A DNA stretch of 42,139 nucleotides from a virus: positions 1 through 42,139 of IMG/VR virus record IMGVR_UViG_3300009420_000025, one strand, 5' to 3'. The notes under the pieces were generated by a model that saw only the letters and a list, made by a program, of their open reading frames with translations, had not been told where the DNA came from and searched no databases. This document shows positions 1,742 through 7,354 of the stretch, piece by piece. The position numbers and the translations under genes are program-made. Each line of letters opens with the position of its first letter. Positions within the stretch are counted from its first letter, which is position 1.

Positions 1742-1865
1742 CGTCTTTTTTATTTCGTTTGTATTTCTTTTTACTTGGTACAACTTGTTGTGTCATCTTG
1801 CGTCGTGCTAACTGTGCAAGCTCACCTCTCGTGTAGCCGTCAATTTTAGGTTTATCTTTTTTCAT
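1722..1865 (-). CDS. Small basic early protein, 47 aa
   Basis: Starts MKKDKPKIDGYTRGELAQLARRK and ends in a Lys/Arg-rich tail (PSKKKYKRNKKDDEERYI). The ATG lies immediately after the 3' end of a tRNA-like element, so RNA processing would release an mRNA with almost no leader. The frame is open upstream to 2054, but that extension would run through both tRNA-like genes and is rejected. High basicity suggests nucleic-acid binding. No family recognised. Confidence 0.65.
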   Translation of the reverse strand: MKKDKPKIDGYTRGELAQLARRKMTQQVVPSKKKYKRNKKDDEERYI

Positions 1866-1866
1866 G

Positions 1867-1946
1867 TGAGAGCAAAGGGAGTTGCACCCTTTAGCCATAT
1901 ACCAATAAAAGTCTGTCCTACTGTAAGTAGTTTCTTTGACGCTCTC
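1867..1946 (-). tRNA. tRNA-like element, anticodon unresolved
   Basis: An 80-nt element with a 7-bp acceptor stem (GAGAGCG with TGCTCTC, last pair G-T) and an adjacent T arm (AAGGG-TGCAACT-CCCTT) with a 7-nt loop. The T loop reads TGCAACT instead of the near-universal TTCRANN. The central part does not fold into a clean anticodon arm by eye; the best hairpin is CTACT-TAC-AGTAG. It starts only 6 nt after the 3' end of tRNA-Asp, supporting a tandem tRNA transcript. It could be a degenerate tRNA or a tRNA-like processing or decoy RNA. Confidence 0.5.
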
Positions 1947-1952
1947 ATGTTG

Positions 1953-2023
1953 CGGTCCATGAAGGTTACGCTCCTTCGACTCTTCCGTGACAGGGAAGTA
2001 TGATTCTATTTCACCAATGGACC
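1953..2023 (-). tRNA. tRNA-Asp(GTC), reduced form, 71 nt
   Basis: A complete cloverleaf: acceptor GGTCCAT/ATGGACC (7 perfect pairs); D arm GTGA-AATAGAA-TCAT; anticodon arm CTTCC-CTGTCAC-GGAAG with T33, anticodon GTC, A37 and C38; a 4-nt variable loop; T arm GAAGG-AGCGTAA-CCTTC; discriminator G73. G34, U35, C36, C38 and G73 are the known identity elements for aspartyl-tRNA synthetase. The D loop lacks the GG pair and the T loop lacks TTC, so the usual D-T loop contact should be missing, as in some mitochondrial tRNAs. The 3' CCA is not encoded. Confidence 0.75.
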
Positions 2024-2030
2024 AAAGGTA

Positions 2031-2062
2031 GAGGGAGGGCTGACGTTTCAACACACTCCCTC
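2031..2062 (-). promoter_or_regulatory. Hairpin upstream of the tRNA pair
   Basis: GAGGGAG (2031-2037) and CTCCCTC (2056-2062) form a perfect 7-bp stem around an 18-nt loop that can fold further (GTTG/CAGC). It sits 7 nt upstream of tRNA-Asp on the minus strand. No T tract follows, so it looks like an RNA processing or stability hairpin rather than a terminator. Confidence 0.45.
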
Positions 2063-2119: not shown

Positions 2120-2377
2120 TTAGTTTTCCGTGTATATGCCGAGGTAGATTTGAAACTGTCCCTCTCTCGTAATAAACGTATGTAGTTCACCATGCTCGTC
2201 ACATAGCTCCGTTAACTCGTCACATAGCTGTTTATATGTAAGAGCTGCTTCGCTAGGCGAACCGAACCCGCTGCTATCTACAAATAACTCCGTTATCTGA
2301 GTATAATCTGAGCCGATTACGTCTTCAAATCGTTCTGACTTTTTTACGTCGTCTAACGTGTCTAATGTAATGTTCAT
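2120..2377 (-). CDS. Hypothetical early protein, 85 aa
   Basis: Starts MNITLDTLDDVKKSERFEDV, acidic, probably a small alpha/beta protein ending in QFQIYLGIYTEN. The ATG overlaps the TGA of the upstream KLIAEFMG-family gene (ATGA), so it is coupled to the paralogue array and read from P2. No catalytic motif, Cys pair or membrane segment is visible. It is the last gene before the tRNA cluster. Function unknown. Confidence 0.8.
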   Translation of the reverse strand: MNITLDTLDDVKKSERFEDVIGSDYTQITELFVDSSGFGSPSEAALTYKQLCDELTELCDEHGELHTFITREGQFQIYLGIYTEN

Positions 2378-2697
2378 TTTACGTGTGTTTTAATAAATTC
2401 TACTACTGCCTTGTATGTACCACCTAAGTCTAAGGTTGATACAGCATCTACAAGGTTATCAAATGGTACATAGTGGCTCTCCGTTTTGTAGCACTTCTGT
2501 ACTACAGGCATCAACCAATCCCAAGAGGTGTGGTATTTTGAGTACTTAGTAATTCCTTCCATTACTTTCTCCTTACTATCTTCTGTTATGTAGAAGAATG
2601 GGGCATCACTCCAAGAGTGTATGTTACCCGCAATAGAGTCTAATGATATCTCATCATGCACCCCCATAAATTCTGCTATTAGTTTATTGTCTTTCAT
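2374..2697 (-). CDS. KLIAEFMG/WLMPVV family protein, copy 3 (107 aa)
   Basis: Starts MKDNKLIAEFMG and carries YHTSWDWLMPVVQKCY in the middle and a YKAVVEFIKT tail. I recognise this small family from many Flavobacteriia and their phages, where it is annotated as hypothetical. It is the third of three adjacent paralogues, which differ mainly in the linker between the N-terminal motif and the WDWLMPVV core. Both ends overlap the neighbours by ATGA. Tandem duplication of an early gene suggests diversification against variable host targets, but its role is unknown. Confidence 0.88.
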   Translation of the reverse strand: MKDNKLIAEFMGVHDEISLDSIAGNIHSWSDAPFFYITEDSKEKVMEGITKYSKYHTSWDWLMPVVQKCYKTESHYVPFDNLVDAVSTLDLGGTYKAVVEFIKTHVK

Positions 2698-3017
2698 GTT
2701 GGTTTATTTAAGTACGAGTATAATAAAGGCTCATTCGTAGGGGCTTCATCGCTATATGTTTTAATAAATTTAACTACTGCTTTATATGTGCTTTGAATAT
2801 CTACGTCAGTTAGATACATAGTTATATCTCCAATGCAGTCACCTTCTGCACCTGACTCGTAACACTTCTGTACTACGGGCATCAACCAATCCCATGAAGT
2901 GTGGTACTTCATTAGAGTCATAGTGTCAGGGTAAATTCCTGTACATATCATGGTTTCGTCATGGTTAAAAGTACCACCCCTACCCATAAATTCTGCTATA
3001 AGTTTGTTATCGTTCAT
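2694..3017 (-). CDS. KLIAEFMG/WLMPVV family protein, copy 2 (107 aa)
   Basis: Starts MNDNKLIAEFMGRGG, with KYHTSWDWLMPVVQKCYESG and YKAVVKFIKT further on. It is most like the copy that follows it, which shares the YHTSWDWLMPVVQKCY block exactly. The C-terminus (APTNEPLLYSYLNKPT) extends beyond the family core. Its start overlaps the end of copy 1 by 11 nt and its stop overlaps copy 3 by ATGA, so the three are translated as a coupled unit. Function unknown. Confidence 0.88.
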   Translation of the reverse strand: MNDNKLIAEFMGRGGTFNHDETMICTGIYPDTMTLMKYHTSWDWLMPVVQKCYESGAEGDCIGDITMYLTDVDIQSTYKAVVKFIKTYSDEAPTNEPLLYSYLNKPT

Positions 3018-3294
3018 CGTTATATGTTTTAATAAATTCTACTACTCTGTCGTACACCACCCCTATATCCATTGTTAGCAAGGACTCGTTGATAAAGTAG
3101 TGCTGACCTTCTTCAGGTTGTTGTGTGTCAAAGCATTTCTGTACTACAGGCATCAACCAATCCCAAGACTTGTGAAACTCCATATTTTCTAACTTAACAT
3201 ATTTACCTTTGTAATAATATTCTGTATTATCTCCAAATTTTTCATAAGGAGTGTATCCCCCCATAAATTCTGCTATTAGTTTATTGTCTTTCAT
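3007..3294 (-). CDS. KLIAEFMG/WLMPVV family protein, copy 1 (95 aa)
   Basis: Starts MKDNKLIAEFMGGYTPYEKFGDN and contains FHKSWDWLMPVVQKCFD and VVEFIKTYNDER. I chose the ATG at 3294 rather than the in-frame ATG at 3366: the extra 24 residues do not align with the two paralogues and overlap another gene, and the AAACCAATA leader motif lies 6 nt upstream of 3294. It is the most divergent of the three copies. Function unknown. Confidence 0.87.
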   Translation of the reverse strand: MKDNKLIAEFMGGYTPYEKFGDNTEYYYKGKYVKLENMEFHKSWDWLMPVVQKCFDTQQPEEGQHYFINESLLTMDIGVVYDRVVEFIKTYNDER

Positions 3295-5942: not shown

Positions 5943-6065
5943 GTGGGGCAAAGGGGAGTCGAACCCCATACTCACACCCTTGACATTTGCAACTGCCTAA
6001 GTGCTTTCATCCTCCGTTGCATATAGCGTCTTGTACATAGACACGTTAGCACTAGGATAATCCCA
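5943..6065 (-). ncRNA. Structured RNA with tRNA-like 3' end and Tyr-like anticodon arm
   Basis: On the minus strand the 3' part contains a canonical T arm (GGGG-TTCGACT-CCCC) followed by TTGCCCCA, as at the end of a tRNA. About 60 nt upstream is an anticodon-arm-like hairpin TGTCT-ATGTACA-AGACG with T33 and triplet GTA (Tyr). The 5' acceptor partner is poor (TGGGATT gives four solid pairs), and a 58-nt stretch with TGCAAC/GTTGCA pairing sits where a variable arm would be. It could be an insertion-bearing or decaying tRNA-Tyr or another tRNA-like RNA. No convincing protein is encoded here. Confidence 0.35.
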
Positions 6066-6073
6066 TATATTTG

Positions 6074-6234
6074 TACCGACGAAGGGTATCGCACCCTCTT
6101 CTCTATACACCTACGCCCTCTACTATCTGAAGCAACAGATTTCAGGGACATAGTGCTTGTGTGCAGTGCATTACTCAAATGCTACGTCAGTATGTTACGT
6201 TTATACTTCGTCAAGTTTTCCGAACTAAATCGGT
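6074..6234 (-). ncRNA. tRNA-like structured RNA starting at the P3 start site
   Basis: The RNA begins three bases after the P3 -7 box. Its first seven bases ACCGATT pair with CGTCGGT (six pairs, one a wobble, last position mismatched) 150 nt later, and that 3' strand directly follows a T arm GAGGG-TGCGATA-CCCTT. T8 and a D-arm-like hairpin AGTT-CGGAA-AACT follow the 5' strand. The interior holds further hairpins, including GCATT-ACTCA-AATGC on the plus strand (6168-6182). This resembles a tRNA domain closed around an insertion, as in tmRNA, but no tag frame or alanine identity pair is seen. Confidence 0.4.
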
Positions 6235-6237
6235 CCC

Positions 6238-6269
6238 CAAAGATACAACAGACTTTTCCAAATTCCAAA
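6238..6269 (-). promoter_or_regulatory. Early promoter P3 (TTTG-N20-TATCTTTG)
   Basis: TTTG at 6266-6269, 20-nt spacer and TATCTTTG at 6238-6245 on the minus strand match the Bacteroidota consensus perfectly. Unlike P1, P2 and P4 it is not followed by the GGC...GCC leader hairpin but directly by the tRNA-like RNA. It then reads the three protein genes 5898 to 4919. Confidence 0.85.
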
Positions 6270-7291: not shown

Positions 7292-7354
7292 TGGTAGTAA
7301 AAGGATTCGAACCTTCGGTTGCTATTAGTTCACAACCATACCAAGTAAACTACC
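7292..7354 (-). tRNA. Short tRNA-like element, D arm missing
   Basis: 63 nt on the minus strand. The acceptor GGTAGTT pairs with TACTACC (six pairs, T-T at the seventh), discriminator A. It is joined to a canonical T arm GAAGG-TTCGAAT-CCTTT. The middle folds as GGTTG...CAACC with an 11-nt loop, too large for a normal anticodon loop, and no D arm fits. It may be a degenerate tRNA or a tRNA mimic marking an RNase P/Z cleavage site within the P4 transcript. The anticodon cannot be named. Confidence 0.5.

Follow-up and report, generated by a model that had tools for sequence, protein, structure and literature searches.

The elbow of tRNA is built where the D-loop and T-loop meet, with G18-U55, G19-C56 and U54-A58 as its canonical bases, and these are regarded as nearly invariant in cellular tRNAs. 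Suppressor tRNAs of the "specific purine trap" type, selected in E. coli in the Steinberg laboratory in about 2004, reportedly have G18 where base 55 is U and A18 where it is G; they are said to have come from a randomised library and to have mostly retained U54-A58. For natural tRNAs, our searches of open-access papers turned up no description of this elbow covariation.

Positions 18, 54, 55 and 58 are described as modified in tRNA (PMC7912444), and the elbow of the eukaryotic initiator tRNA has A20, A54 and A60 (PMC10602860). The aspartate identity of bacterial tRNA is given by G73, G10, G34, U35, C36 and C38; the pairs G1-C72 and G2-C71 are also strictly conserved (PMC9976931). As to what tRNAs may do for a phage, the available text of PMC10264068 describes phage tRNAs with altered anticodon loops as an escape from tRNA-cleaving defence, and that of PMC11555353 describes supplementation with phage tRNA-Tyr/Lys against such defence; neither available text mentions the T-loop, the D-loop or the elbow.

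The DNA analysed here, which we call the window, is a stretch of 42,139 bases constituting an IMG/VR virus record, and it encodes PHROG-type terminase, portal and head proteins. A terminase search finds over 600 viral relatives of this phage.

The tRNA-Asp gene and its surroundings

The element at 1953-2023 of the window is a genuine tRNA-Asp gene. It and its immediate features are as follows.

1953-2023, minus strand: tRNA-Asp(GUC) with an alternative elbow, A18-G19 in the D-loop and a T-loop of A54-G55-C56-G57-U58-A59-A60 (ARAGORN, Rfam, model R1)
2004-2010, minus strand: D-loop AAUAGAA (A14-A21), A18-G19 in place of G18-G19 (sequence, ARAGORN brackets, alignments)
1987-1993, minus strand: anticodon loop CUGUCAC (C32 U33 G34 U35 C36 A37 C38), standard for tRNA-Asp (sequence, ARAGORN)
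1966-1972, minus strand: T-loop AGCGUAA (A54-A60) (sequence, ARAGORN brackets)
2030-2062, minus strand: GC-rich hairpin GAGGGAG / CTCCCTC, directly 5' of the tRNA-Asp (folding, -18.1 kcal/mol)

ARAGORN calls the gene at 1952-2023 on the minus strand, Rfam RF00005, run with permissive filters, scores it at 48.4 bits against a gathering cut-off of 29, and its minimum free energy structure is the cloverleaf with z = -2.15. A z of about -2 is weak, and covariation is used here in place of a mean-energy argument. Model R1, a covariance model built from 30 G55-class viral tRNAs with the window sequences not included, scores it at 69.4 bits (E = 9e-21). The initial annotation of the sequence had proposed a full cloverleaf tRNA-Asp(GUC), which the ARAGORN call, the Rfam score and the fold bear out, and it had read the D-loop without GG and the T-loop correctly. 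Its expectation that standard finders would score the gene poorly does not hold for ARAGORN and Rfam, although the default filters of Infernal do discard 1953-2023.

In the tRNA numbering, G1-U7 is followed by U8 and G9, the D-stem pairs 10-13 with 22-25, the D-loop is A14 A15 U16 A18 G19 A20 A21, and the discriminator is G73. The D-stem, the T-stem and the loop lengths are all ordinary. CCA is not encoded, the acceptor stem being followed by GCA, so the tRNA would need the CCA-adding enzyme of the host. The bacterial AspRS determinants of PMC9976931 are all present: the five bases singled out at the outset (G34, U35, C36, C38, G73) and also G10, G1-C72 and G2-C71. The canonical elbow is absent, and A18-G19 and A54-G55-C56-G57-U58 stand in its place. 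G55, A18-G19 and C56 together are the features by which we define an A18-G55 class here, and the tRNA-Asp has all of them. That filter-based tRNA searches overlook genes of this type is a warning.

Two other phage tRNA-Asp genes have a D-arm very similar to that of the window gene; L233 has a D-loop with GG and the T-loop AUCGUAA, and L063 has the D-loop AAUAGAA and the T-loop UGCAAUU. When the three are aligned, 63/63 stem cells hold standard pairs, and double-sided changes occur in 12 of the 21 stem pairs against a shuffled mean of 4.0. Substitutions that break the stems in related phages had been named as the refutation test for the gene; in L233 and L063 the stems are intact. The compensatory changes indicate that the four-stem cloverleaf is under constraint, and the tRNA-Asp is very probably functional. 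It is plausible to arrange the three as a series, from U55 with GG (L233) through G55 with AG (L063) to G55 with AG plus A54-U58 (the window).

None of the terminase relatives searched has this tRNA-Asp at the same site. By DNA similarity against isolated phages, the 600-bp region gave matches at chance level, and the tRNA-Asp matches retrieved with the gene alone had canonical loops. Aspartate makes up 7.0% of the codons in 12 phage ORFs. The hairpin at 2030-2062 may be a terminator or a leader. At 2374-3294 on the minus strand are 3 neighbouring small genes of 95-107 aa, tandem paralogues by appearance, with no PHROG matches.

Elbow covariation in viral tRNAs

The question is whether this elbow is a lost contact or an altered one. 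Viral contigs were collected with an anticodon-arm pattern and through terminase, and ARAGORN run on them gave an unselected census of 1,255 distinct tRNAs. The D-loop has AG in all 19 of the G55 tRNAs and GG in none, while the U55 tRNAs divide into 1,202 with GG and 13 with AG (Fisher P = 9e-34; the P values given here are descriptive only, the sequences being kin by descent and not independent). Two patterns blind to the D-loop were used to test for ARAGORN bias. The first asks for the anticodon loop of tRNA-Ile(GAT) and GGAGCRTNACC and specifies nothing for the D-loop; the matches listed include 97 real tRNA genes, of which 96 have A18-G19, the remaining one reads AAAAAUA, and GG is found in none. 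Another six listed matches were not tRNAs. The second asks for tRNA-Asp with CGTNACC in the T-arm, again with the D-loop unspecified, and its 44 distinct tRNAs comprise G55 with AG (4/4) and U55 with GG (40/40). As the two scans agree, ARAGORN bias was rejected as the source of the 18-55 rule. New G55 tRNA-Asp genes in L507, L527, L551 and L609 belong to the window tRNA-Asp's own class.

The second elbow contact covaries as well. In viral tRNAs, U56 goes with G18-A19 (32/33), A56 with G18-U19 (13/16), G56 with G18-C19 (4/4), and the combination G55-A56 with A18-U19 (1/1). Phage tRNAs thus vary both elbow pairs, with 18-55 changing from G-U to A-G and 19-56 running through all four Watson-Crick pairs, and exchange the 54-58 pair besides. 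The A54-U58 form is tied to G55 in the unselected viral sample, at 7/19 against 21/1,225 (descriptive P = 5.5e-8), and A60 accompanies A54 in 133/156 tRNAs of a set enriched for A18-G55-class tRNA-Ile (descriptive P = 2.7e-152). These patterns argue that compensation operates at both known elbow contacts in phage tRNAs. The window gene had been taken for a lone oddity, and with more than 100 viral tRNAs of the A18-G55 class found, it is not one; judged by covariation, its elbow exemplifies an alternative form that is widespread among phage tRNAs and follows a rule.

The initial annotation had concluded from the loop bases that the elbow contact should be absent. A tRNA-Asp lacking all D-loop/T-loop contact would resemble some metazoan mitochondrial tRNAs, from which the elbow is missing (PMC4810234), and the canonical G18, U54, U55 and A58 are indeed all missing from the window gene. 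Such strict covariation of 18-55 and 19-56 would not be expected without a contact, however, and in the AG..U class, to which the window tRNA-Asp belongs, C56 and an AG D-loop occur together in 63/63 tRNAs; the ordinary D- and T-stems and loop lengths of the gene also speak against it. Since the window gene obeys the rule, we consider loss of the contact highly improbable, and the earlier conclusion very likely wrong.

We think instead that this is, in all likelihood, a functional phage tRNA-Asp whose alternative elbow is compensated and would let it adopt the normal L shape. A18 would replace G18 opposite G55, where canonical tRNAs have G18-U55, in an exact geometry that we infer from the covariation. 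G19-C56 pairing would be retained, and the 54-58 pair would be exchanged for A54 and U58, with A60. If expressed, the tRNA would be a substrate of the host AspRS and would feed aspartate into phage translation. Because it has other bases in place of U54, U55, A58 and G18, the host enzymes TrmA, TruB, TrmI and TrmH would have no target base in it, and to judge from these replacements the A18-G55 class may have a modification-independent elbow. Plain compensatory drift also accounts for the data.

A bacterial control used the same anticodon-arm pattern and covered 116 loci with 229 tRNAs, none of which has A54-U58. All 9 of its G55 tRNAs have AG, and 8 of these 9 are tRNA-Met(CAT), for the most part on contigs of Patescibacteria. 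Chromosomal tRNA-Met(CAT) with the A18-G55 elbow was seen in seven bacterial contigs, mostly Patescibacteria (L289, L273, L294, L296, L309, L337, L261); its D-loop reads AGUAGUA and its T-loop UGCAANU. A pattern for the class's tRNA-Ile form matched twice (L493, L494) among 395 genomes from the phylum of Cesiribacter (G047) and 0 times among 398 from the phylum of Zoogloea (G048). Of the two matches, L493 was inspected and has no cloverleaf. On these counts, a cellular origin of the class was rejected. Isolated phages do have members, namely a tRNA-Ile of Pseudomonas phage 16Q (AAAAGUA / AGCGUUA) and a tRNA-Met of Aeromonas phage 4_4572 (UGCAAUA). In Pectobacterium phage CBB the A54-U58 form occurs with U55 and GG.

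The partner and other tRNA-like elements

Next to the tRNA-Asp there is a second element, which coincides with a small open reading frame.

1867-1946, minus strand: tRNA-like partner with an acceptor stem of 7 bp, a T-stem of 5 bp, the G55-type T-loop UGCAACU and A73 (R1, shuffles)
1862-1948, minus strand: 28-codon ORF MRASKKLLTVGQTFIGIWLKGATPFALT coinciding with the partner (translation)

The acceptor stem GAGAGCG/UGCUCUC lies at 1946-1940 / 1874-1868, and the T-stem AAGGG/CCCUU encloses the loop UGCAACU; there is no conventional D arm or anticodon arm. The initial annotation had described the acceptor and T stems, this loop and the want of a conventional anticodon arm, all of which we find. 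Its forecast that standard finders would do poorly is also right for this element, which gets no ARAGORN call and no Rfam match, permissive filters included. A canonical anticodon arm was sought by enumerating stems by hand and rejected, no arm of 5 bp and 7 nt with U33 being present.

Over both strands of the window, the layout of acceptor plus T-arm is found only in the tRNA-Asp and the partner, which are 6 nt apart. Shuffled sequences give the layout 0.47 times per strand with any loop and in 0/30 cases with a T-loop-like loop, making a chance origin of the partner unlikely. Model R1 ranks the partner second in the window at 17.1 bits (E = 0.0022), with the anticodon region mostly deleted. 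We favour the view that the partner is probably tRNA-derived, either a relic or a tRNA-like RNA with an aberrant core, and the small ORF is a serious rival to it.

On that rival account there is no RNA gene, and 1862-1948 is a 28-codon coding sequence that happens to hold an inverted repeat. The frame is open, and its stop and the start codon of the small ORF that follows overlap as ATGA, in a way that resembles translational coupling. The missing anticodon arm would suit this account, as would the related tRNA-Asp genes of L507, L527 and L609, beside which no such partner was seen. Against it, an acceptor and T-arm with the T-loop consensus occur once, 6 nt from a tRNA, in an arrangement that 0/30 shuffles reproduce; the element is second-best for an independent tRNA model; and homology lends no support to the ORF, which is short. 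We regard a coding sequence as possible, though somewhat doubtful.

L231 (1501-1577) and about 12 more terminase relatives (e.g. L173, L176, L178, L193) share a tRNA-like element of 77 nt that is conserved and has a rearranged core. It has acceptor and T arms and a covarying stem CCC/GGG (CUC/GAG) around CAAG-CUUAUAC-CUUG (anticodon UAU), then a UGG segment; sister phages of its carriers have an ordinary tRNA-Ile(UAU).

The partner might then be a working tRNA-like RNA akin to this Ile(UAU)-like element, which likewise joins acceptor and T arms to a covarying stem around an anticodon-type loop, CUUAUAC. The same layout can be drawn for the partner, with AAAG/CUUU enclosing CUUACAG, but the drawing is weak in that its anticodon stem has 3 bp, homologues of the partner were not found, and its linker is GG, whereas its G55 calls for AG. 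A working RNA of this kind seems unlikely to us, and a tRNA-derived element, relic or aberrant, is still the reading we favour.

Other elements of a similar kind were noted. L609 has at 1388-1466 on the plus strand an acceptor plus T-arm with a non-standard core and no ARAGORN call, partner-like in kind. The window at 7292-7354, minus strand, has a tRNA-like element with an acceptor, a canonical T arm and a reduced D-arm, whose Rfam tRNA score of 23.9 bits is below the cut-off; its hairpin GGUUGU/GCAACC surrounds GAACUAAUA, with CUA at the centre. At about 5943-6245, also minus, some 300 nt of non-coding sequence have tmRNA-like ends, UGGGG...GGGGUUCGACUCCCC...CCCCA, and contain at 6074-6114 a T-arm-like hairpin with the loop UGCGAUA. 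As a tmRNA, this region gets no ARAGORN call and only an Rfam tmRNA fragment match of 12.8 bits.

Possible counter-defence and comparison with known elbows

Resistance to host anticodon nucleases had been suggested for these tRNAs. The anticodon loop CUGUCAC of the tRNA-Asp shows no alteration of the kind that marks nuclease-resistant phage tRNAs, and searching with the same anticodon arm shows it to be common in phages and bacteria, so escape by the published route (PMC10264068) is disfavoured.

A different proposal is that the elbow itself was selected, hiding the tRNA from host nucleases or other enzymes that read the elbow while it replaces host tRNA-Asp destroyed in infection. Since bacteria always have tRNA-Asp, a phage would have little cause to carry it for codon supply alone. 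The elbow changes co-occur above expectation, the A18-G55 class is rare or absent among the sampled bacterial genomes, and phage tRNAs are known to oppose tRNA-cleaving defences (PMC10264068, PMC11555353). Yet the anticodon loop is unaltered, unlike in the escape route that has been published, this analysis identified no anti-phage nuclease that reads the elbow, and U55-type tRNAs are the majority in phages overall. Selection for counter-defence is thus distinctly unlikely in our estimate. A wider version is more of a long shot still: a class with a modification-independent elbow (A18-G55, A54/U58, A60), free of TruB, TrmA, TrmI and TrmH, would evade host enzymes or nucleases that read the standard elbow, and the coreless partner would be a tRNA mimic that keeps an enzyme of this kind occupied.

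The compensated elbow that we prefer has uses apart from these proposals. The changes in phage tRNAs are natural compensatory changes, and they offer comparative evidence for the D-loop/T-loop contacts. The A18-G55 class could supply an alternative elbow for tRNA engineering and a test of the purpose of elbow modification.

With the canonical bacterial tRNA-Asp(GUC), the window tRNA shares the cloverleaf, the loop CUGUCAC and the full AspRS determinants, and differs in the elbow, where G18, U54, U55 and A58 become A18, A54, G55 and U58, and at position 60, which is A in place of a pyrimidine. The purine-trap suppressors reportedly share with the phage class the choice of purine 18, G with U55 and A with G55; they are said to be the product of library selection and mostly U54-A58, whereas the phage tRNAs are natural and often A54-U58. 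The phage tRNAs of PMC10264068 and PMC11555353 duplicate a host isoacceptor, as does the window tRNA, but those of PMC10264068 are altered in the anticodon loop and the window tRNA-Asp in the elbow. The eukaryotic initiator tRNA (PMC10602860) has A54 with A60 and no m5U54 in common with the window tRNA, but it retains U55 and A58, belongs to another group of organisms and has a different 18-55 pair.
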